From Candidatus Binatia bacterium (lineage in GTDB: Bacteria; Vulcanimicrobiota; Vulcanimicrobiia; Vulcanimicrobiales; Vulcanimicrobiaceae), in NCBI GenBank assembly GCA_035541935.1, contig DATKMJ010000067.1:62001-126000 (forward strand): a stretch of 64,000 bases of DNA, read 5' to 3'. The stretch's first letter is position 1, and each line of letters starts with the position of its first letter. Under the pieces are notes generated by a model. That model was not told the DNA's origin. It was given only the letters and a program-made list of their open reading frames with translations, and did not search any database. A program made the translations under genes and the position numbers. This document shows, one piece after another, positions 33,462 to 44,941 of the stretch.

Positions 33462-34649
33462 TTAGCCTAAGACGAAGCCGGTTCGAATTGCGGGGCGCGC
33501 GAACTTGAAGCCGTCGGTTCCGACCGTGTAGAGGTAGATGTTCGGGATCAGCGGATCGCCGGCGATGTTGAAGGCGAACTGTCCGACGAGCGTCGTGAAC
33601 GTGCCGCCCGATTGGAGCGATGTGAGGATCGCCGAACGGGTCGTGGCGTTCGTACGCTGCTGGGCAGAGAAGAAAAGCTGCGCGGCGGCGTAGCCGTACG
33701 CGGAGAAGGCCGTCACCTGACTAACCTCGCGCTCGAAATCCGTGACGAGCTGCAGGACGCTGGGAATTCGATCGAGCGGCGGCAGCGACGACGCGACGAG
33801 CGCGCCCGAGAGCGTCTTGCCGTACGTCGCGATCGTGTCGGTATTGTAAAAGCCGTCGCTCGCTCCGAACTCGCCGGTGTATCCCGCGAGCCGCATCGCC
33901 TCGGCGATCGGTCCGAGGACCATCGTCTTCCCGGAGAGGAAGACGTACGCTGGGGAGCGATCGAGCACGGTGCGCGCCGCCTGGACGGGATCGGTCTTAT
34001 CGGCCGGAAAGAGCAGCAACTCCGCCGGATGCCGATCGGTGCGCGCCGCCGAGACGAAGCCGTTGGCGACCTCGTAGCCGTAGTCGCCATCGTAGGCGAC
34101 CGCGACGACCGGAACGCCGCGCTTGCCTTCGAGCGCCGCGTTCGCGAAGAGTTTTCCGGACGAGCTGTCTTTCGCAGGGAGACGGTAGACGTTGTGAAAG
34201 CCGCGCTGCGTGACGGCGTCCGCCGTGACGGTCGGGACGACGACGGCGAAACCCGTGTTCGCATAACGCGAGAGCGCCGCAAGCGTCATCGCGGAGGTTA
34301 GGTTTCCGACGACGCCGATGACGGTGAAATCCGCGGCGGCGACGTTCGCGTTCGACGCGGCGAGCCCGGGGTCGTCGCGATCGTCGAGCGCGCGAGTTCC
34401 CCACACGTGCGAGACCGGCGCGGTGAAACGATTGATCTCGTCGACGGCGGCCTGCACGCCTTTGACGACCTCTTGCCCGTACTTCTGCAACGGGCCCGAG
34501 AGCGTGACGTTCACTGCGATCGTCAGTTGCTGCAGATAGTGTTGCGGCCCCGTGATCGGCTGGATCGGCACGATCTGCGAGCGCGCCGGGAGCGCGGCAC
34601 CTCCCGCTGCGGCTGCTGCGGCGGCGGCGATGAACCGGCCGCGATTCAT
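33462..34649 (-). CDS. Type-1 periplasmic binding protein (LivJ/amino-acid ABC substrate-binding family)
   Basis: The 395-residue protein has an N-terminal signal (FIAAAAAAAAGGAALPARSQ). The mature chain has the two-lobed type-1 fold: VNVTLSGPLQKYGQEVVKGV, VIGVVGNLTSAMTLAALSRY and GFHNVYRLPAKDSSSGKLFA. No permease or ATPase gene is adjacent, so it may serve a remote transporter or act as a receptor. Its start overlaps the ubiA stop by 4 nt, so it is the last gene of the long minus-strand cluster. Confidence 0.85.
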   Translation of the reverse strand: MNRGRFIAAAAAAAAGGAALPARSQIVPIQPITGPQHYLQQLTIAVNVTLSGPLQKYGQEVVKGVQAAVDEINRFTAPVSHVWGTRALDDRDDPGLAASNANVAAADFTVIGVVGNLTSAMTLAALSRYANTGFAVVVPTVTADAVTQRGFHNVYRLPAKDSSSGKLFANAALEGKRGVPVVAVAYDGDYGYEVANGFVSAARTDRHPAELLLFPADKTDPVQAARTVLDRSPAYVFLSGKTMVLGPIAEAMRLAGYTGEFGASDGFYNTDTIATYGKTLSGALVASSLPPLDRIPSVLQLVTDFEREVSQVTAFSAYGYAAAQLFFSAQQRTNATTRSAILTSLQSGGTFTTLVGQFAFNIAGDPLIPNIYLYTVGTDGFKFARPAIRTGFVLG

Positions 34650-35494
34650 ACGTATCCGCCGACGGTCGTCAGCAAGAAGAAGACCGAAAACGTCATGTTG
34701 GAGATGAAGATGCGTTCGTTGATGACGAAGAGATTGGCGCCGCTGCGGAAGAGATACTCTTCGTAAACGATTAGAACTGCGACCGCCGCGACGCCGAGAT
34801 AGTAGGTGCGGCCCGCGCCGGCGAGCATCCCCGCGCCCGCTAGCAGCAGCAGCATGACGCCGTGCAGCAGAATCGGCAGCACGCGCCCGCTCCCTTCACC
34901 GAAGCGCACCGGCAAGGAACGGATTCCTTGCGCGCGATCGACGCCGAGATCCATGAGCGCGTAGATGATGTCGAAGCCGGCGACCCAGATCGTTACCGCC
35001 GCGAAGAGCAGGATCGCCGGCAGCGTCACTCGTCCCGCGATGCCGACGTAGGCACCGAGCGGCGCGAGCCCGTCGACCGCGCCGAGAACGAAGTGGGTTC
35101 CCCACGTGAACCGCTTGCAGAGCGGGTAGGTGAGCACGAGCAGGATGGCGATCGGCAGCAGTTTCACGCAGAGCGGATTGAGCATCCACGCGGCGACGAA
35201 GAGCAGTCCGAGGCCGGCGAGGCCGGACCAGACCATGACGCCCGGCTTGAGTGCGCCGCTGGCGAGCGCGCGGCGCGCGGTGCGCGGATTGCGCGCGTCG
35301 ATCTCGCGATCGAAGAAGCGATTGGCCGACATCGCGGCCGTGCGCGCGCCGAGAACGGCGAGCGTGATCCAGCCGAGCGCGGCGAGCGAGGGAATCCCGC
35401 GAGCGGCCAGGATCGCGCCGACGTAGGCGAACGGCAGCGCGAAGAGCGTGTGCTCGATCCGAATCTCGCGGAGGAAGAGCGCGACGCTCTTCAA
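34646..35494 (-). CDS. UbiA-family prenyltransferase (MqnP/UbiA-like)
   Basis: The TTG at 35494 overlaps the ubiD stop (TTGA) and gives 282 residues with eight or nine helices. Both Asp-rich motifs are present: NRFFDREIDARNPRTARRAL and YALMDLGVDRAQGIRSLPVR. UbiA enzymes attach a polyprenyl chain to an aromatic acid. Pairing with UbiD points to menaquinone by the futalosine route or to ubiquinone synthesis; the window cannot decide between them. A longer frame upstream only shadows ubiD. Confidence 0.9.
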   Translation of the reverse strand: MKSVALFLREIRIEHTLFALPFAYVGAILAARGIPSLAALGWITLAVLGARTAAMSANRFFDREIDARNPRTARRALASGALKPGVMVWSGLAGLGLLFVAAWMLNPLCVKLLPIAILLVLTYPLCKRFTWGTHFVLGAVDGLAPLGAYVGIAGRVTLPAILLFAAVTIWVAGFDIIYALMDLGVDRAQGIRSLPVRFGEGSGRVLPILLHGVMLLLLAGAGMLAGAGRTYYLGVAAVAVLIVYEEYLFRSGANLFVINERIFISNMTFSVFFLLTTVGGYV

Positions 35495-37020
35495 TGGCCT
35501 CGCTCCGGCGCGCGCAGCAGCGAGGCATACGCCGCCGGGCCCTGTCCGGACCAATCGTCGGGCTGCAGCGCGCGTTCGATCGCGTCGAGCCCGTACTCGC
35601 GCCACCGCTCGGTGACGCGCGTGCGCGTCGCGTCGTCCATGATCGTCTCCGCCGGCCACGACCGCGCGTATCCCTCCGACGCGTCCTTGCGCGTCGCATC
35701 GATGCCGATCTTCGTGCCGTACGCCACGCTGTACGAGCCGTGATCGAGATCGTCGACGGGCCCCGGCATCATCACGACGTCGCGCTCCGGTGCGAGATTG
35801 TTGAGGACGAACCAGGCGACCGCGCGCGGGTTGCTGACATCGACGTCCGCATCGACGATGACGAGGACGCGCGTCAACATCATCATGTGTCCGAGCCCCC
35901 AGAGGGCGTTCATCACCTTCTTCGCCTGCCCGGGGTAGGATTTACGAATCGAGACGATCGCGAGATTGTGAAAGCCGCCCTCGACGGGGAGATTCATGTC
36001 CGCGACTTCCGGCAGCATCGCTTGCAAGAGCGGCAGGAAGATGCGCTCCGTCGCCTTGCCGAGCCATGCATCTTCCATCGGCGGCTTTCCGACGAGCGTC
36101 GCGGCGTAGATCGGTTTGCGGCGGTGCGTCACGCACGTGACGTGAAACGTCGGATAGCGGTCGACCGGCGTGTAGACGCCGGTGTGATCGCCGAACGGTC
36201 CCTCGTCGCGCAGATCGCGGTTGTCCACGTAGCCTTCGAGCACGAACTCGGCTTCGGCCGGCACCGGCAAGTCGACGGTGCGCGCGCGCACGAGATCGAC
36301 GGGCTTCCCGCGCAGCAATCCGGCGAAGGCGAACTCGTCGACGATCGGCGGGAGCGGCGCGGTCGCCGCGTAGGTCAGCACCGGCTCGGTTCCGATTGCG
36401 ACCGCGACCGGAACCTTCTCGCCCCACGCGTCGGCGTGCGCGCGACCGTGTTTGTGCCGTTGCCAATGCATCGCCGTCTCGCGCGGGCCGAAGCGCTGCA
36501 TGCGATAGATGCCGACGTTGAGGCGCTGCGTGCGCGGATCTTTCGTGATGACGAGCGGCAGCGTGATGAACGGTCCGGCATCGCCCGGCCACGTCGTCAG
36601 CACCGGCAGGGCGTTGAGGTCGGGTTCGGTGACGACCGTCTCTTGAACCCCGCCGTTGCGCACGACGTTCGGCACCGCGTTGGCGAACGGCGCGAGGCGC
36701 ATCGCGCCGCGCAGCTTTCCGACCAGCGATCCCGAGGGAGGCGTGAAGTCGATCAGGCTGCGGATGCGTTCGCCGGCCTCGTCGAGCGTCGCAACGTCGA
36801 GCGCGGTCGCCATGCGCCGGCGCGTCCCGAACTGATTCGTGAGCACCGGAAAATTCGAGCCCTTGACGTTGGTGAAGAGGAGCGCGGGGCCGCCGCCCTT
36901 CACGACGCGGTCGGTGATCTCGGCGATCTCGAGGTGTGGATCGACGCTCGCCTCGACGACGTGCAGCTCGCCGTTCCGGCGCAAGGCTTCTACGAACTCT
37001 CCGAGCGTCGCAAAGGGCAT
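35491..37020 (-). CDS. UbiD-family prenylated-FMN-dependent decarboxylase
   Basis: The 509-residue protein matches UbiD: ATLGEFVEALRRNGELHVVE, GGGPALLFTNVKGSNFPVLT, the prFMN region KDPRTQRLNVGIYRMQRFGP and EGPFGDHTGVYTPVDRYPTF (with the catalytic Glu/Arg region). It would remove the aromatic carboxylate after prenylation during quinone synthesis and needs prenylated FMN from a UbiX protein not in this window. The gene lies 28 bp after the sensor kinase gene and overlaps ubiA by TTGA. Confidence 0.94.
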   Translation of the reverse strand: MPFATLGEFVEALRRNGELHVVEASVDPHLEIAEITDRVVKGGGPALLFTNVKGSNFPVLTNQFGTRRRMATALDVATLDEAGERIRSLIDFTPPSGSLVGKLRGAMRLAPFANAVPNVVRNGGVQETVVTEPDLNALPVLTTWPGDAGPFITLPLVITKDPRTQRLNVGIYRMQRFGPRETAMHWQRHKHGRAHADAWGEKVPVAVAIGTEPVLTYAATAPLPPIVDEFAFAGLLRGKPVDLVRARTVDLPVPAEAEFVLEGYVDNRDLRDEGPFGDHTGVYTPVDRYPTFHVTCVTHRRKPIYAATLVGKPPMEDAWLGKATERIFLPLLQAMLPEVADMNLPVEGGFHNLAIVSIRKSYPGQAKKVMNALWGLGHMMMLTRVLVIVDADVDVSNPRAVAWFVLNNLAPERDVVMMPGPVDDLDHGSYSVAYGTKIGIDATRKDASEGYARSWPAETIMDDATRTRVTERWREYGLDAIERALQPDDWSGQGPAAYASLLRAPERGH

Positions 37021-37988: not shown

Positions 37989-38660
37989 TCAGGCGTTCCT
38001 CAGACGGTATCCGACGCCCCATACGGTCTCGATGACGCCGCTCGCGCCCAGCGCCTTGAGCTTGCGGCGGAGTTGGCTCACGTAGACGTCGACGATGTTG
38101 CTCGATCCCTCGAAGTCGTAATCCCAGATGCGCTCGACGATCTGCGTCCGCGTCAGCGCGATGCCGGCGTTGCGGGCGAGAAACTCCAAGAGACGAAATT
38201 CGGTGGCGCCCAAGGCGATGGGTTTGCCGTCGTACGCGACCGATCTGCCGGCGAGGTCGATCCGAAGCGCCCCGGCGGAGACGACGCCGACCATCGGCCG
38301 GTCGGCGCGGCGCAGGATCGCGGATATGCGCGCGATCAGCTCCTCTTCGACGAACGGCTTGACGAGATAATCGTCCGCGCCGCAATTCAGTCCCGCGACG
38401 CGATCTTCGACCGCATCGCGCGCGGTGAGCATGAGGATCGGCGTCTGCACGCCCTCGGCGCGCGCGCTGCGCGCGAGCGTGAAGCCGTCCATGCCGGGCA
38501 ATCCGACGTCGACGACCGCGGCGTCGTAGCACCGGCGCAGCAGGTGATCGAGTCCGGCCGCGCCGTCGGTGACGACGTTGGCGGCGAACTTCCGCGCCTC
38601 GAGCATGGTGCGGATCGACTCCGCAACCGGCACGTTGTCCTCGACGACGAGAACTCGCAT
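37989..38660 (-). CDS. OmpR/PhoB-family response regulator
   Basis: The 223-residue protein has a receiver domain with phospho-Asp in DAAVVDVGLPGMDGF, the acid pocket VLVVEDN, and Lys in DDYLVKPFVEEELIARI. It has a C-terminal winged helix (RLLEFLARNAGIALTRTQIV, NIVDVYVSQLRRKL, GVIETVWGVGYRL). It starts 2 nt after the Cyc2-like gene stop, which implies cotranscription and perhaps control of the redox cluster. Confidence 0.95.
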   Translation of the reverse strand: MRVLVVEDNVPVAESIRTMLEARKFAANVVTDGAAGLDHLLRRCYDAAVVDVGLPGMDGFTLARSARAEGVQTPILMLTARDAVEDRVAGLNCGADDYLVKPFVEEELIARISAILRRADRPMVGVVSAGALRIDLAGRSVAYDGKPIALGATEFRLLEFLARNAGIALTRTQIVERIWDYDFEGSSNIVDVYVSQLRRKLKALGASGVIETVWGVGYRLRNA

Positions 38661-38662
38661 GG

Positions 38663-39793
38663 CTAGTATTTCAACGGGCCGGGGAAAGCTACTGTCAGCG
38701 CGCCGCTAAGGTACGGGTGGGAGCCGGGCGGCTGCACCTCTTGCATGAGGATCCGGAACGGTGCGATCTGCACGGCGCCGTAGTATACGAAGTCGCGGTT
38801 GATGAACGGGTTGGCGTAGGCATCGTACCGCACGCCGAGATAGGCGTGGGGAATCGGATAGTACTTCAGGCGCACGTAACCGCCGCTGGAGTGTTGGTTG
38901 GTCAAGAAGCCGTCGGCGTCGTGGTCGTCCCCATACCATTGCTCGGCCTGCAGGTCGAGATCGCCGTAGCGCGCGTGACCGACCAGACCGTAACGCTCGT
39001 AGAGATCGGCGAACGGAAGACGCCCGGTCGGCATGATGCCGAGCGTTCCGCCGAGCGCGGTCGCGCCGACGTCGGCCTCACTCTTGGCCGTCTGCGCGAG
39101 CGTCTCGCGCAGCCAGATGCTCATCTCGGGGCTCTTGAGCCACGTGGACTCACCGGTCGGAACCGGCTTGCCGCCGTACGCAGAACCGGAGTAGAAGCCG
39201 AAGTCGACGGCGCCGTCCACGCGCAGGTTGCCGAAGGTTCGCTCGGCCATCACGCCCCAGCGGGGCGACGAGAGCGGCAGATTGTTCAACCCGACGTGCG
39301 CGCCGTAGTAGCCATATTGCTCGAGGTCGTCGAGCCGTTGGCCCGGCGACTGCGCGAGCGGAAGCTCGAAGAGGCCGCCGCGGTAGAGCGTCTGCGTGTG
39401 CGCGTTGTACGCGGCCGCGAAGACCAGATACGTCGCCGCCGGACCGCCGCCGGCGCCGAAGTTGTAGTGGAGGTACGCGGTGATCTGACCGATGTTGCCG
39501 CTTCCGAGCAGGATGCCGCCGGGCGTGAACTCCCGGGTATCGGGCGCCGGATGCTCGTCGTACTCCAGTTGGTAACGTATCGCGAAGATCGTCGTGCCGT
39601 GCTCGGGGAGCGGCAATCTGTAGCCGTGAGAGCGGAAGTAATTCCCGAACGCATTGAGTTCGGGCAAGACGCTGTGGCACTGCCCGCAACGCAGGTGGTA
39701 TCGCTGAGCGAAGATCGGTATCGCGCGCGCCGGCGCTTGGGTTAGGGCGATGAAGAAGAGCGCGAGGACCGCAACGGCAACGCTATTGCGCAA
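38663..39793 (-). CDS. Cyc2-like fused monohaem cytochrome c-porin of the outer membrane
   Basis: The TTG at 39793 gives 376 residues. Residues 1-24 form a signal peptide ending APARA. A single haem-binding motif CGQCH is at 36-40, in the context IPIFAQRYHLRCGQCHSVLP and ELNAFGNYFRSHGYRLP. This matches the Cyc2 pattern (A-x-P-x-F-A ... CxxCH ... P-x-L-N-x-F-G-x-x-F-x-x-x-G-Y). The remaining 310 residues look like an outer-membrane barrel: alternating aromatic/small strands ending in a hydrophobic C-terminal strand. Cyc2 proteins take electrons from Fe(II) outside the cell. Iron oxidation here is only a hypothesis, since the wider family is not fully characterised. It is clustered with three cupredoxin-domain genes. 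Confidence 0.78.
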   Translation of the reverse strand: MRNSVAVAVLALFFIALTQAPARAIPIFAQRYHLRCGQCHSVLPELNAFGNYFRSHGYRLPLPEHGTTIFAIRYQLEYDEHPAPDTREFTPGGILLGSGNIGQITAYLHYNFGAGGGPAATYLVFAAAYNAHTQTLYRGGLFELPLAQSPGQRLDDLEQYGYYGAHVGLNNLPLSSPRWGVMAERTFGNLRVDGAVDFGFYSGSAYGGKPVPTGESTWLKSPEMSIWLRETLAQTAKSEADVGATALGGTLGIMPTGRLPFADLYERYGLVGHARYGDLDLQAEQWYGDDHDADGFLTNQHSSGGYVRLKYYPIPHAYLGVRYDAYANPFINRDFVYYGAVQIAPFRILMQEVQPPGSHPYLSGALTVAFPGPLKY

Positions 39794-40232
39794 CGATCGC
39801 CGCCCGCATCGGCGCGCCGTAGTGGAAGAAACAGCCGAAAAGATACGTGCCGGGGCGATCGACGGCAATCGTCTGCGACGACGCGTTCGGCTGCAAGGCG
39901 CCGCTGCTGAAGCCGCCCGAGAGCGAGTTCCCGTGCTGCTGGAGCGCCGAGTCGCCGAACGGCGAGCCGCTCGGGAACTTCGTCGCGTTCGGAATGAGCG
40001 TTGCCGTGTGCGCGAAGCTGTCCGTGTTGACGAAATGGATTTGCGAACCGACGGGAACGGTCGTCACGGGCGGCGAGTAGCCCCCGCTCGTTCCGTAGGG
40101 CGTCGGCGTCGGTGCGTAGAGCGTCAGGCTGATGTCGATCGTCGTGCCGCCGCTTCCGCCCGATGAGGTCGGAATGCCGCCCGCCGTGCAGGCGGCGAGC
40201 GAGAGCGCGAAGCAGGCCGCGAACCGGCGCAT
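39783..40232 (-). CDS. Cupredoxin (plastocyanin-like) lipoprotein
   Basis: The 149-residue protein has a lipoprotein signal (ALSLAAC, Cys15) and a Ser/Gly linker, then a cupredoxin beta-sandwich. Type 1 copper ligands are visible: His75 (SFAHTATL) and Cys134, His137, Met142 in GCFFHYGAPM, the C-x2-H-x4-M spacing of plastocyanin. It would carry electrons near the membrane. Its start overlaps the SCO gene stop (TGATG) and its stop overlaps the Cyc2-like start by 11 nt. Confidence 0.85.
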   Translation of the reverse strand: MRRFAACFALSLAACTAGGIPTSSGGSGGTTIDISLTLYAPTPTPYGTSGGYSPPVTTVPVGSQIHFVNTDSFAHTATLIPNATKFPSGSPFGDSALQQHGNSLSGGFSSGALQPNASSQTIAVDRPGTYLFGCFFHYGAPMRAAIVAQ

Positions 40233-41323
40233 CAGCGCTGCGCCATCCGCTCGTCTTTGAGCGCGTCGACGATCGCGTCGCTCAGCGCGCTCGACGCGAG
40301 CATCGTCTGCGAGAGCCTGCCCCGCGCGTCGAGAACGTAGACGAAGGTCGTGTGCTCGTCGCGGTAACCGTCGCGCCCTTGGACCGCGATGACGCCGAAC
40401 TCTTTCATGATCGCGTGAACGTCGCGCACCGGCCCGCCGGCGAGGATCCAGTATCGCGGGTCGGCGCCGAATCGGCGCGCGATCTCGCGCATCGCAGCGG
40501 GGGAGTCGTGCTCCGGATCGAGCGTGATCGTCAACAGGCGTCCGTTGATGTGGCCGTGCGCGATTTTGCTCGCGGCGTCGGAGAACTGTGCGTTGATGAG
40601 CGGGCACGCGTCGGTGCAGTGCGCCCCGACGAACGTCACGGCGACCGGCTTGCCAACGAGCGAGCCGAGCGTAAAGGCGCGGCCGCGCTGATCGACGAGC
40701 TGCGGTCGCCGCTCCTGCGCCGCAGCCGCGCGCGACTTCCTGACGATTGCGTAGCCGCCCGGTCCGGGCGACGCGGTCGGCCCCGGCGTCGCTCCCGCGA
40801 CGACTTGGATGACGTCGCGCATGTTGAACTCGACGTAGTGATACGCGCAGCCGATCAGATAGATGCCCGGATCCTTGAGGGTGACGGTGACGGAGTCGCC
40901 CGGATTGAGCGAGCCGCTGGCATAGCCGGCGCCGAGTATGCCGTTCCCGCTGGGATAGAACGAGAGGCTCGGGTTCTGCGGCCATTTCACGGGCGGAGAA
41001 CTCACCGTTGCGATGACGTTGAGCGTGTGCGGATCTTTATTCGATAGATTTTCGATCGTGATCTGCGCGCCGGGTGGAAAGGCGAGCACCTGCGAGTTCT
41101 TCGTCTGCGTATATCCGCCGACGGTTCCCCACACCGGATCGTTCTCGACGCCGATCTTTTGATTGGGCACGCCGAGACCGATCGCCGACGATTGCGGAAA
41201 TGGTGAGGGCGACCCTCCGCCGCCCCCACCGCCGACGCTGCTGAGGCCGCCGCCGTTCGTGCACGCAGCTGCGACCGCGCACAGGGCGACGGAGAGCCAC
41301 GCTGCCCGGCCGCCGGATCTCAT
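40232..41323 (-). CDS. Cupredoxin-SCO1/SenC fusion lipoprotein
   Basis: The 363-residue protein has a lipobox at Cys21 and a Gly-rich linker. A cupredoxin domain follows (about 50-178) with His99 (DPHTLNV) and Cys159, His162, Met168 (GCAYHYVEFNM). The second domain (about 205-360) is an SCO1/SenC thioredoxin fold with the copper motif C-x3-C (HCTDACPL, Cys236 and Cys240) and His324 (RDEHTTFVYVLD). SCO proteins deliver copper to cytochrome oxidase CuA. Fusion to a cupredoxin could link copper storage or redox with delivery. It overlaps both neighbours, so it is part of the operon. Confidence 0.88.
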   Translation of the reverse strand: MRSGGRAAWLSVALCAVAAACTNGGGLSSVGGGGGGGSPSPFPQSSAIGLGVPNQKIGVENDPVWGTVGGYTQTKNSQVLAFPPGAQITIENLSNKDPHTLNVIATVSSPPVKWPQNPSLSFYPSGNGILGAGYASGSLNPGDSVTVTLKDPGIYLIGCAYHYVEFNMRDVIQVVAGATPGPTASPGPGGYAIVRKSRAAAAQERRPQLVDQRGRAFTLGSLVGKPVAVTFVGAHCTDACPLINAQFSDAASKIAHGHINGRLLTITLDPEHDSPAAMREIARRFGADPRYWILAGGPVRDVHAIMKEFGVIAVQGRDGYRDEHTTFVYVLDARGRLSQTMLASSALSDAIVDALKDERMAQR

Positions 41324-41913
41324 CGCGCCGGCGCTGTCGCCTGCGGTCCCGGCGTCGCGCCATTTGCGACGACGAGCACGGTCCGCATTCCGGAGCCGTA
41401 GTGGTAGAAGCAGCCGATCAGGTAGATGCCCTTCTTGCCGAGCGTGACCGTCACGCTCGAGCCCGGATTGATAGAGCCGCTCGCGTAGCCTTTCTGGAGT
41501 TTACCGCCCGATGGCGTCAACGTGAGTTTTGGACTCTGCGGAAAATTCGCCGGCGGTCCCTTGATTTTCTTGACGACGTTGAGCGTGTGGTGAAGATTCT
41601 TCGAGATGTTTTTGATCGTGATCTTCGTGCCGGGTGGGAAGCCGAGCGCTTGCGAGAAGTTCTGCTGCGTGAACCCGCCGAGCACGGCGCTCCAGTTCGG
41701 GTCGTCGATCGTTCCGAGTCCTTCCGAGGGGAGCTCTTCGCTGATCGTGCCGGTTCCCGCGTCGCCCTTCGGCAACGTCGCGGTCATCGTAAGATCCGGC
41801 ATGCCGGGGAGCGCGTACGTCGCTCCGGCGGCGCCGTTGCCGTAGCGTCCGCCGCACGCCGCGAGCGCGATTGCGGCGACTGCGACGAAGAGTGCTGCTA
41901 GTTTCCTAGACAT
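41320..41913 (-). CDS. Cupredoxin lipoprotein, first gene of the redox operon
   Basis: The ATG at 41913, with GGAGG just upstream, gives 197 residues. The lipobox is ALAAC (Cys20). The cupredoxin domain shows His108/His109 (NLHHTLNVV) and Cys168, His171, Met176 (GCFYHYGSGM). Much of it is paralogous to the cupredoxin half of the downstream fusion (shared FPPGxxITIxN and GYASGSxNPGxSVTVTL), so the operon carries duplicated modules. A 73-bp AT-richer gap precedes it and probably contains the promoter. Confidence 0.85.
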   Translation of the reverse strand: MSRKLAALFVAVAAIALAACGGRYGNGAAGATYALPGMPDLTMTATLPKGDAGTGTISEELPSEGLGTIDDPNWSAVLGGFTQQNFSQALGFPPGTKITIKNISKNLHHTLNVVKKIKGPPANFPQSPKLTLTPSGGKLQKGYASGSINPGSSVTVTLGKKGIYLIGCFYHYGSGMRTVLVVANGATPGPQATAPAR

Positions 41914-41986: not shown

Positions 41987-42799
41987 CTAGGGATTCTTGA
42001 TCGAATCGCGCATTGCGGCGGCGATATTCTGCAGCGCGGGATCGCCGGCGGCGTCGAGCGTGGCTCGTGCGAAGGCGTTGCGCGCCGCTGCGTTCTCCCC
42101 CTGCCGAAGCAAGACGACGCCGAGCGCGAATCTCGCTCGAGCGTAGGTGGGAGCCAGACCAAGCGCGCTCTCGAGCTCGCGCTGGGCGGCGTCGTAGCGT
42201 CCGAGACGCTCTTCGGCGAGGGCGAGATCGTAATGGGCGAGCGCGTACGACGGGTTCGCGTGGAGGAGTTTTCCAAAATCCTCGCGCGCCGTTGCGGCGT
42301 CTCCGCCCTGCAACGCGACGATGCCTCGCGAGTAGAGCGCGCGCGCCGATTCCGGTGCGAGCGCTACGTAACGATCGGCAATCTTCCGCGCTTCGGCGAG
42401 GTCGCCGAGCGCGAGATCCACCGAGACGAGGTTTGCCATCGCGGCGAGGAACGCGGAGTCGAGCGCGATCGCGGCGCGCAGTTCGCGAGCGGCATCGGCG
42501 TTGCGCTGCAAGTTCGCGTACGCGAGCGCGAGATCGTATCGAGCGGTCGAGCCTTGCGGCTCCGCGGGCTCGAGCGCGACGATGCGCTCGAACTCGGCGG
42601 CGGCCGCGCTCCAATCGCCGCGCGCTTCGGCTTGGAGCCCGATGGTGAAGCGTTCTTCGATCTCACGCTTGACCGCGACGGCGCGCAACGCCGGCGCCGA
42701 CGTCGTGCGCGGCACCGGGGCCGGAGAGGCGTACGTTTGTGCGGCGACCGGGGCCGCCGCGAGTTGGAAGAGGAGGGCGGCGAGTAGGGGAACCCGCAT
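41987..42799 (-). CDS. Exported tetratricopeptide-repeat protein
   Basis: The 270-residue protein has a signal peptide (LLAALLFQLAAAPVAAQ) followed by about six TPR units (for example AEFERIVALEPAEPQGSTAR, ALYSRGIVALQGGDAATARE, AQRELESALGLAPTYARARF). TPR proteins act as scaffolds; the partner is unknown. It lies 73 bp upstream of the redox operon on the same strand and 3 nt after a small secreted protein gene. Confidence 0.85.
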   Translation of the reverse strand: MRVPLLAALLFQLAAAPVAAQTYASPAPVPRTTSAPALRAVAVKREIEERFTIGLQAEARGDWSAAAAEFERIVALEPAEPQGSTARYDLALAYANLQRNADAARELRAAIALDSAFLAAMANLVSVDLALGDLAEARKIADRYVALAPESARALYSRGIVALQGGDAATAREDFGKLLHANPSYALAHYDLALAEERLGRYDAAQRELESALGLAPTYARARFALGVVLLRQGENAAARNAFARATLDAAGDPALQNIAAAMRDSIKNP

Positions 42800-43090: not shown

Positions 43091-44941
43091 GTGAAGCGTA
43101 CGTTCCTAGGCGCCGCGACCGTGCTCTCTCTCGTGCTCGCGGCGGCTTCGGCGCGCGCGCAGGCTCCATTGCTGGTCGGCTCCGTACGAGACCAGCACGG
43201 GCGGCCGATTCCCGGCGCCCGCGTCGCCGGCACTGCGAGCGGCGGCGCCGGTCCGTCCACCACGACCGACGCGTCCGGCACGTTCGCGCTTCACGCCGCC
43301 GCGATCGTCTCGGTTACCGTCAGTTGCCGCTACTGTCAGACCGCGGTCTTCGCCGTGACGCCGGAGCAGCCGGTCGTCGCGATCGTGCGCCGGTACGACG
43401 CGTTGCTCGACGACTCGCCCTCGCAGAGCGATCTCGACAGCCTTCCCTACGCGCACGTCGAGTCGTCGATCGCGCTGCGTCCGTTCACGCTGCTCGCGCA
43501 AACGACGACCGCCTATCCGGGCTCTCGCCTGAGCGATCGCGGTCTCTCCGCGAGCGGCTCGCTGCTGATTGACGATAACGTGCCCGCGTACGACAGCGTC
43601 TCCGGGGAGTCGCCGTACTCGTTGGTGCCGGCACGGTACGAGCAGAGCGCCGCCGTGCGCGACGCTTCGAACGCGTACGCATACGGCGATGAGGCCGGCG
43701 GCGGCATCGTCGATCTCACGCCCTTCGCCGCCGGCTCGAATCCGGAGATCGCGCTCGTCGGCAACGACGCGATCGCGCGCGCGCAGGTCGGATCGGACGC
43801 GGCGGGCGCCGCGATCGCTTCCTTCAGCAACGACGAAGAGTCGCGTCAACGCGGGGACGTATTCGCGACGTGGCCGCTCGGCGGCGGCGAGTCGCTGGGG
43901 TTCTCCGGCGGCAGCGAGCAGGGGCGTCAGTACGAATCGCCGGGCTCGCAGTTTGCCGGCAGCTTCTCGTTTGCGAACGCAAGCTTCTCCGACGCGCGGC
44001 TCGAGAACGTAACCGTCTCGGCGGAGACCGATCGGGGCAACTACGCGCTGCAGGCCGGCGAGTATCCGATCTCGTCGGGATGGTCGGACTCGAGCTTTGC
44101 GGCCGGCGTGCGATCGAACGGCACGTTCTTCGGATTCGCCGACGTCGGGCTCCGCACGACGAGCGGATTCTACGACGCGCAGGCGCTGCTTTACGGGCCG
44201 CCGCGTCTCGGCGTAACCTTGACGCAGACTCGGGCCGATGCCGGGTTCTCCGCGAACGGCGCGGATTACGCGATCACCGGCGGCGTCGGCGCGTTTTGGT
44301 TCGACTACGCCGGCGGGACGTACGGGTATTCGTGGCCGGTGAAGACGGCGCTCGCGGTGCCGTCGCTCGACGCGCGGCTCTTTCCGAACGGAAAGTGGAG
44401 CCTCGACCTGCAAGGCAGCGGCTCGTTCACGCTGCCGACGTTCACCGAGCAGTATCTCTATTCGAACGCGGTGACGGTTCCGGTGCAGTATCAGCGCAAC
44501 TCGCTCTACGCGGGCTCGCTGACCTACACGGATACCTCGCGGCTGCGCTTCTCGTTCGAGCAGGCGTCGGAGGAAGTGACCGGCGCCGCGTCCGGTCAGG
44601 TGACGTCGAGCGGCGTATCGGCGATCTGGCAGATCGCGCCGGTGCTCTCGCTGCGCGCCTGGACGATGCACGTCACCGACACGGTGCCCGTCTACGGCAC
44701 GGTTCCGGCCTACGGCGGCGAGGCGCCCACGGCAAACGCGTTCTGGATGACGTACGACGTCGCGGGCGGCGTGCGCGCCGACGCGATCTATCGGCGCGAT
44801 CTACTCGATTCGACGCCGTTCTATCACGTAGACGGCGCGATCTCGGGACCGGTTGCCAACGGCTTGCGGTGGTATGCGGGCGTCGAAGATCGCATGCGCC
44901 GAACCTTCATCGATATCGGGATGCGCTTCGACGCCCGTTAA
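43091..44941 (+). CDS. TonB-dependent-receptor-like outer-membrane protein with N-terminal carboxypeptidase-regulatory-like domain
   Basis: The 616-residue protein has a signal peptide (VLSLVLAAASARAQA). A Cna-B/carboxypeptidase-regulatory-like domain follows (about 28-105, VGSVRDQHGRPIPGARVAGT). A plug-like region (SASGSLLIDDNVPAYDSVSG) leads into a long beta-barrel with alternating strands (GDVFATWPLGGGESLGFSGG). The length is short for a full receptor. The substrate is unknown and no tonB gene is beside it. Confidence 0.7.
   Translation: MKRTFLGAATVLSLVLAAASARAQAPLLVGSVRDQHGRPIPGARVAGTASGGAGPSTTTDASGTFALHAAAIVSVTVSCRYCQTAVFAVTPEQPVVAIVRRYDALLDDSPSQSDLDSLPYAHVESSIALRPFTLLAQTTTAYPGSRLSDRGLSASGSLLIDDNVPAYDSVSGESPYSLVPARYEQSAAVRDASNAYAYGDEAGGGIVDLTPFAAGSNPEIALVGNDAIARAQVGSDAAGAAIASFSNDEESRQRGDVFATWPLGGGESLGFSGGSEQGRQYESPGSQFAGSFSFANASFSDARLENVTVSAETDRGNYALQAGEYPISSGWSDSSFAAGVRSNGTFFGFADVGLRTTSGFYDAQALLYGPPRLGVTLTQTRADAGFSANGADYAITGGVGAFWFDYAGGTYGYSWPVKTALAVPSLDARLFPNGKWSLDLQGSGSFTLPTFTEQYLYSNAVTVPVQYQRNSLYAGSLTYTDTSRLRFSFEQASEEVTGAASGQVTSSGVSAIWQIAPVLSLRAWTMHVTDTVPVYGTVPAYGGEAPTANAFWMTYDVAGGVRADAIYRRDLLDSTPFYHVDGAISGPVANGLRWYAGVEDRMRRTFIDIGMRFDAR

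Follow-up and report, generated by a model that had tools for sequence, protein, structure and literature searches.

We asked what kind of protein is encoded at positions 38663–39793 of the window (the whole 64,000-nucleotide stretch that was analyzed), and what function it could have together with the copper proteins encoded beside it. A sequence-only reading had described the product as a Cyc2-like cytochrome-porin with cupredoxin neighbors and had proposed an unrecognized route of extracellular electron uptake. The window belongs to an assembly of 2.41 Mb (99% complete), and this genome was examined in stretches. The named relatives carrying the same gene were all metagenome-assembled genomes of Candidatus Eremiobacterota, one of them labelled Eremiobacteria.

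Structure and conservation of the cytochrome-porin gene

The interval proved to be right, and the gene was located on the minus strand (39793→38663; Table 1); the plus strand of the same interval contained an unrelated frame with a stop. The TTG start overlapped the 3′ end of the preceding gene, CUP3. The minus-strand product had the layout first read from the letters: a signal peptide ending in ARA, a single CGQCH haem motif, PEL four residues further on, FG..F..GY, and a long barrel-like remainder. Its N-terminal sequence was MRNSVAVAVLALFFIALTQAPARA (signal peptide) followed by IPIFAQRYHLRCGQCHSVLPELNAFGNYFRSHGYRLP (mature chain). The signal peptide was called by inspection, and the AxA cleavage pattern was present in nearly all aligned sequences. 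A bare CxxCH was uninformative in the window, being hardly commoner than in shuffled sequences (four seen, 2.65 per shuffle); the full motif A.P.FA(4-8)C..CH(2-4)P.L..[FY]G occurred once in the window and in none of 100 shuffles.

Conservation of the haem motif had been named as a check on the assignment, and CxxCH was invariant in 35/35 aligned orthologues, with identities down to 31%. Further invariant residues in this alignment were A24, P26, F28, A29, R31, Y32, P44, L46, N47, F49, G50, F53, R54, and G57, and the haem domain was the most conserved part of the porin. In a protein search, 54 of 60 genomes contained relatives, and several copies in one genome were common; a stricter profile search found the window-type porin in 68 of 149 genomes of the phylum, all 68 from the same class.

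Two paralogue types of the cytochrome-porin exist besides the window type. In the divergent type, ...VPALNTYGRYVQRTGY, a CuA-type protein was encoded directly before the porin at three loci (L053, L110, and L113), not at every locus examined. L053 belongs to the genome of the window (L053:1-1166; contig C37, about 19.7–21.2 kb), and there the paralogous porin follows a free-standing CuA-type protein, CAVVCGAGHANM. The other type, ...FAHQYGVTCEKCH...PHLNEFG, had no copper protein nearby. A copy was present on the same contig (L054:10661-11776; about 50.7–51.8 kb), and this type was widespread in relatives.

Table 1. Positions of the cytochrome-porin gene, its sequence elements, and the neighboring genes in the window
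Feature	Position	Strand	Remarks
UbiA-like polyprenyltransferase (menaquinone type likely)	34646..35500	-	TIGR01475 above cut-off
Menaquinone-biosynthesis UbiD-family decarboxylase	35491..37020	-	TIGR03701 596.6 bits, above cut-off
Sensor histidine kinase, short periplasmic loop	37049..37969	-	
OmpR-type response regulator	37989..38660	-	
Fused monohaem cytochrome-porin (Cyc2-like)	38663..39793	-	376 aa, TTG
GDDHDADG loop of the porin, residues 288-295	38909..38932	-	Consensus GxDx[DN]xDG; both outer Asp in 35/35 orthologues
CGQCH haem attachment motif, residues 36-40	39674..39688	-	CxxCH kept in 35/35 orthologues
A|IPIFA: signal-peptidase Ala (-1), then proposed cytochrome-f-like mature N-terminus	39707..39724	-	Putative role
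Porin signal peptide	39793-39722	-	Mature chain from Ile25 (39721)
CUP3 cupredoxin lipoprotein	39783..40232	-	Lipobox LAACT, CFFHYGAPM; overlaps porin start; conserved partner
Cupredoxin domain fused to SCO1/SenC (CTDACP), predicted lipoprotein (AAACT)	40232..41323	-	PF02630 E=1.6e-18
CUP1 cupredoxin lipoprotein	41320..41913	-	LAACG, CFYHYGSGM

Relationship to Cyc2

Cyc2 was defined by Keffer et al. as a 16-strand porin with one haem, whose CxxCH is preceded by AxPxFAR[Q/K][T/Y] and followed by PxL, and was divided into clusters 1–3, which include the proteins of Acidithiobacillus ferrooxidans and Mariprofundus ferrooxydans (PMC8406198). Like Cyc2, the window porin had a signal peptide and a single CxxCH near its N-terminus, within an AxPxFA...CxxCH...PxL haem domain. 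The upstream motif was AIPIFAQRY, in which the A, P, F, A, and Y of the definition were found and the R and Q/K were not, the window porin having Q-R where Cyc2 has R-[Q/K]. The PxL element was present four residues past CxxCH (SVL-PEL, with P44 and L46 invariant), and the 376 residues exceeded the FeGenie length floor for Cyc2 of 365 aa.

For comparison, Cyc2 references were taken from plasmids of Methylocystis, Caballeronia, Paraburkholderia, Ideonella, Acidithiobacillus ferrooxidans, and Polymorphobacter; their Cyc2 type is assigned from motif and context rather than from biochemical tests, and most of them adjoin a c-type cytochrome gene. Alignment of the orthologue profile with these references by hhalign gave 98% over 79 columns, which span the signal peptide as well and whose identities are carried by the haem domain, compared with 23% over 13 columns in a control with the ordinary cytochromes c of this genome. 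In BLASTP, the porin matched the plasmid-borne Methylocystis Cyc2 with E=3e-9; the gene of the latter adjoins a di-haem cytochrome (best PDB match, 1h1o). These alignments indicate that the haem domain of the window porin is homologous to that of Cyc2. The haem domain alone could be aligned, the barrel being unalignable to Cyc2 by sequence. Pfam and NCBIfam gave nothing useful for the porin or for the Methylocystis reference, so these databases cannot decide the porin family, and none of the PDB sequence searches, whether run with the protein, with its profile, or with its haem domain, gave a significant match. Because of the unalignable barrel and the two differing motif letters, we classify the protein by its sequence as a divergent, Cyc2-like cytochrome-porin and do not count it as a canonical Cyc2; the original assignment thus stands for the haem domain and fails for the strict motif and the barrel sequence. 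On the plasmid of a soil Caballeronia (L076:4930-7947), a HiPIP, a Cyc2-type porin, and a di-haem cytochrome c are encoded together, and the annotated start of that porin misses the haem motif.

Predicted barrel structure

A barrel of 16 strands had been anticipated, and two AlphaFold2 models, built with and without the signal peptide, each had exactly 16 beta strands after the haem domain. Both were of low confidence (pLDDT 54; pTM 0.55–0.58) because they were built on alignments shallower than the full orthologue set. Foldseek matched the models to solved general porins of 16 strands, with OmpU among the first (E=3e-8) and OprP and OprO, the templates used for Cyc2 modelling, also in the list. 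OprP/OprO, OmpU, and OmpC have the 16-strand barrel predicted for the window porin, at weak Foldseek similarity, and differ from it in having no haem. The models therefore support a porin-like barrel but not its details. If the usual porin topology holds, the long conserved segment 143–177 would be loop 3 and residues 288–295 would be loop 6; the GxDx[DN]xDG motif of the latter, predicted between strands 11 and 12, would then lie in an extracellular loop. This motif, which belongs to the window type and not to Cyc2, resembles the DxDxDG loops known to bind calcium, and its sequence suggests that the loop may bind a metal.

The conserved charged columns of the barrel also differed from those of Cyc2. 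The orthologues had 8 Arg to 6 acidic columns, whereas the Asp-rich Cyc2 references had 2 Arg to 8 acidic; the contrast gave a Fisher p of 0.10 with all rows and 0.04 with six diverse rows (8:4 vs 2:8). These Arg-leaning charges are only suggestive, and would argue against assuming free Fe2+ as the donor.

Operon organization and copper partners

The neighbors had been taken for blue-copper proteins, and this was confirmed: three cupredoxins, one of them fused to SCO1, are encoded upstream of the porin in the same operon, whose genes overlap or are spaced by 2 nt. CUP1, the SCO1 fusion, and CUP3 all keep the His and C-x2-H-x4/5-M copper ligands; their cupredoxin Pfam scores were below the curated cut-off. 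Where the flanks of an orthologue locus were intact, the gene directly before the porin almost always encoded a CUP3-type cupredoxin, and this held in all three sampled families of the class. The copper ligands of this cupredoxin were intact in most of these loci, a few frames being off the simple pattern. In the genus, the operon also contained CUP1, the cupredoxin-SCO1 fusion, the regulator, and the kinase, with the UbiD decarboxylase and the UbiA-like prenyltransferase downstream. By synteny, the UbiD-family decarboxylase was kept downstream in the genus and in several related genera. In more distant families, the SCO1 part had moved away or been lost, and the cupredoxin stayed beside the porin. 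The periplasmic loop of the kinase had no convincing metal-binding motif across the orthologues.

Two further genes accompany the operon. A signal-peptide-bearing TPR protein (41987-42799, minus strand), conserved at the operon head and found near the porin in several distant genera, is a possible assembly factor. An outer-membrane receptor-like protein with a carboxypeptidase-regulatory N-terminal domain (43091-44941, plus strand) was encoded beside the operon in most relatives.

A Cyc2-type porin is likewise co-encoded with cupredoxins in the rus operon of Acidithiobacillus (cyc2-cyc1-cup-cox-rus; PMC10654088). The window operon differs from it in containing neither cyc1 nor cox genes, in that its cupredoxins are lipoproteins, one of them SCO1-fused, and in the two-component system attached to it.

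Proposed sixth ligand of the haem

Among the 41 sequences of the orthologues and Cyc2 references, there was neither an invariant Met nor an invariant His beyond CxxCH. Instead, all 41 had an Ala followed by xPxF, with Ala next in 40/41, and the first Ala was nearly always part of an AxA signal-peptidase pattern. Cytochrome f in the PDB starts with YPIFAQ, and its sixth haem ligand is the alpha-amino group of Tyr1. As in the window porin, the mature N-terminus of cytochrome f is xPxFA and lies shortly before CxxCH. Homology between the two was considered and rejected, since the PDB searches described above were not significant; cytochrome f has a different fold and location, and only a mechanistic analogy is kept. 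From this cytochrome-f-like N-terminus and the lack of a conserved Met or second His, we propose that the N-terminal amine of the mature chain would be the sixth ligand of the porin haem. If so, the defining motif of Cyc2 would have a simple explanation: the conserved Ala would be the signal-peptidase site and the xPxFA end the haem ligand. In the literature searched, of which coverage was partial, this idea was not found for Cyc2 in connection with cytochrome f or an axial ligand.

A wider combination of proposals is rather unlikely to hold as a whole. In it, the mature N-terminal alpha-amino group would be the sixth ligand throughout the Cyc2-like superfamily, as in cytochrome f; in Eremiobacterota, the superfamily would be split into three porin types with a type-1 copper partner, a CuA partner, or no copper partner; and the donor, in these non-autotrophic soil bacteria, would be other than free Fe(II).

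Proposed function and alternative explanations

We favor, at a probability of roughly 0.6, the reading that the porin is an outer-membrane electron conduit passing external electrons to CUP3 and onward to a caa3-type oxidase. An N-terminal segment of ~40 residues in the predicted 16-strand porin would be a plug with a single haem, homologous to the Cyc2 plug. The reduced donor, which may be Fe(II) or a chelated or anionic compound, would enter or dock at the barrel mouth, and the haem, lying on the periplasmic side, would take one electron from it. The next carrier would be CUP3, the type-1 copper lipoprotein encoded beside the porin, for which an anchor in the inner leaflet of the outer membrane is probable; CUP3 would hand the electron on to periplasmic cytochromes and the oxidase. 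The SCO1 fusion probably aids copper loading of the cupredoxins, and the two-component system would set expression of the operon. Electrons taken up in this way would be an energy supplement in a heterotroph without RuBisCO. The location of the porin, the direction of electron flow, and the role of CUP3 as acceptor are what we infer from the locus.

The sequence-only reading had recommended a search for oxidase and c-type maturation genes, and both were present in the same genome. A caa3-type oxidase was found; the genome encodes two haem-copper oxidases, and a CoxII-cytochrome c fusion adjoins one of these. Also encoded are a cytochrome b-c fusion (bc-type protein), ResB, proteins for cytochrome c assembly, and Omp85. 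The genome thus provides for attaching haem, for assembling the barrel, and for an electron sink linked to oxygen. Counted against a conduit are the lack of sequence similarity of the barrel to Cyc2, the low confidence of the models, the two differing motif letters, and the lack of RuBisCO in the genus.

That the protein is a true Cyc2 orthologue with dissolved Fe(II) as its physiological donor, and these Eremiobacterota iron oxidizers, is possible but doubtful. The haem domain and layout shared with Cyc2 and the length above the FeGenie floor would fit such a role, as would the single earlier report, from acid mine drainage, of a Cyc2-like gene in a genome of Eremiobacterota (PMC8357290). The strict motif was lacking, however, the barrel charges leaned to Arg, and the conserved partner was a cupredoxin, whereas that of Cyc2 is a Cyc1-type cytochrome c. 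RuBisCO was not found in the host genus; of the 60 relatives searched, 14 had a RuBisCO-family match, and these all belong to other genera. The host is therefore not a classic iron autotroph; its probable mode of life is aerobic heterotrophy in peat and soil.

We consider it unlikely that the operon serves copper handling, in which copper would enter through the porin, have its redox state set by the haem, and reach the oxidase by way of the cupredoxins and the SCO1 domain. Such a role would explain why one operon combines a SCO1 domain with three copper proteins, and would suit a regulator pair resembling heavy-metal response systems, though far below the cut-off. However, distant orthologues keep only a single cupredoxin with the porin and not the SCO1 fusion, copper uptake needs no haem, and contig C38 of this genome carries a separate copper set of PCuAC, CopC/CopD, and several SCO1 proteins. 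At L095:4278-11829 on that contig, two long SCO1 proteins, a short SCO protein, PCuAC, and a CopC-CopD protein are encoded; the last shares an open frame with a signal-peptidase domain, a fusion that may be an open-frame artefact.

Outward flow, in which the porin would be an outlet for surplus electrons or a reductase acting on humic substances, Fe(III), or other acceptors outside the cell, would suit the aerobic, heterotrophic life in peat and soil that is probable for this host, and sequence does not reveal which way the electrons move, but it is very improbable, since type-1 copper centers and Cyc2-type haems normally have high potentials (+208 mV for the Cyc2 of Mariprofundus) and are poor donors to Fe(III) oxides, and a single haem does not span the membrane.

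Significance

Because of the earlier report from acid mine drainage, the bare finding of a Cyc2-like gene in this phylum is not new, and the word "unrecognized" in the initial proposal is correct only in part. The searched literature contained no link of Eremiobacterota to cupredoxins, and in it we found neither the conserved pairing with cupredoxins, nor the split into paralogue types, nor the proposal of an N-terminal ligand. The new features are the pairing with type-1 copper proteins (CuA for one paralogue group), the GxDx[DN]xDG loop, the mostly Arg conserved charges of the barrel, and the cytochrome-f-like N-terminus. Iron oxidation should not be concluded from a Cyc2-like match in a genome alone. 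The pairing of porin and cupredoxin suggests a wire that brings outside electrons into a cell that does not fix carbon. If the conduit reading is true, electron uptake through one-haem porins would belong to the core traits of an uncultured phylum common in soil, and it would run via copper proteins instead of cytochromes, untied from carbon fixation.
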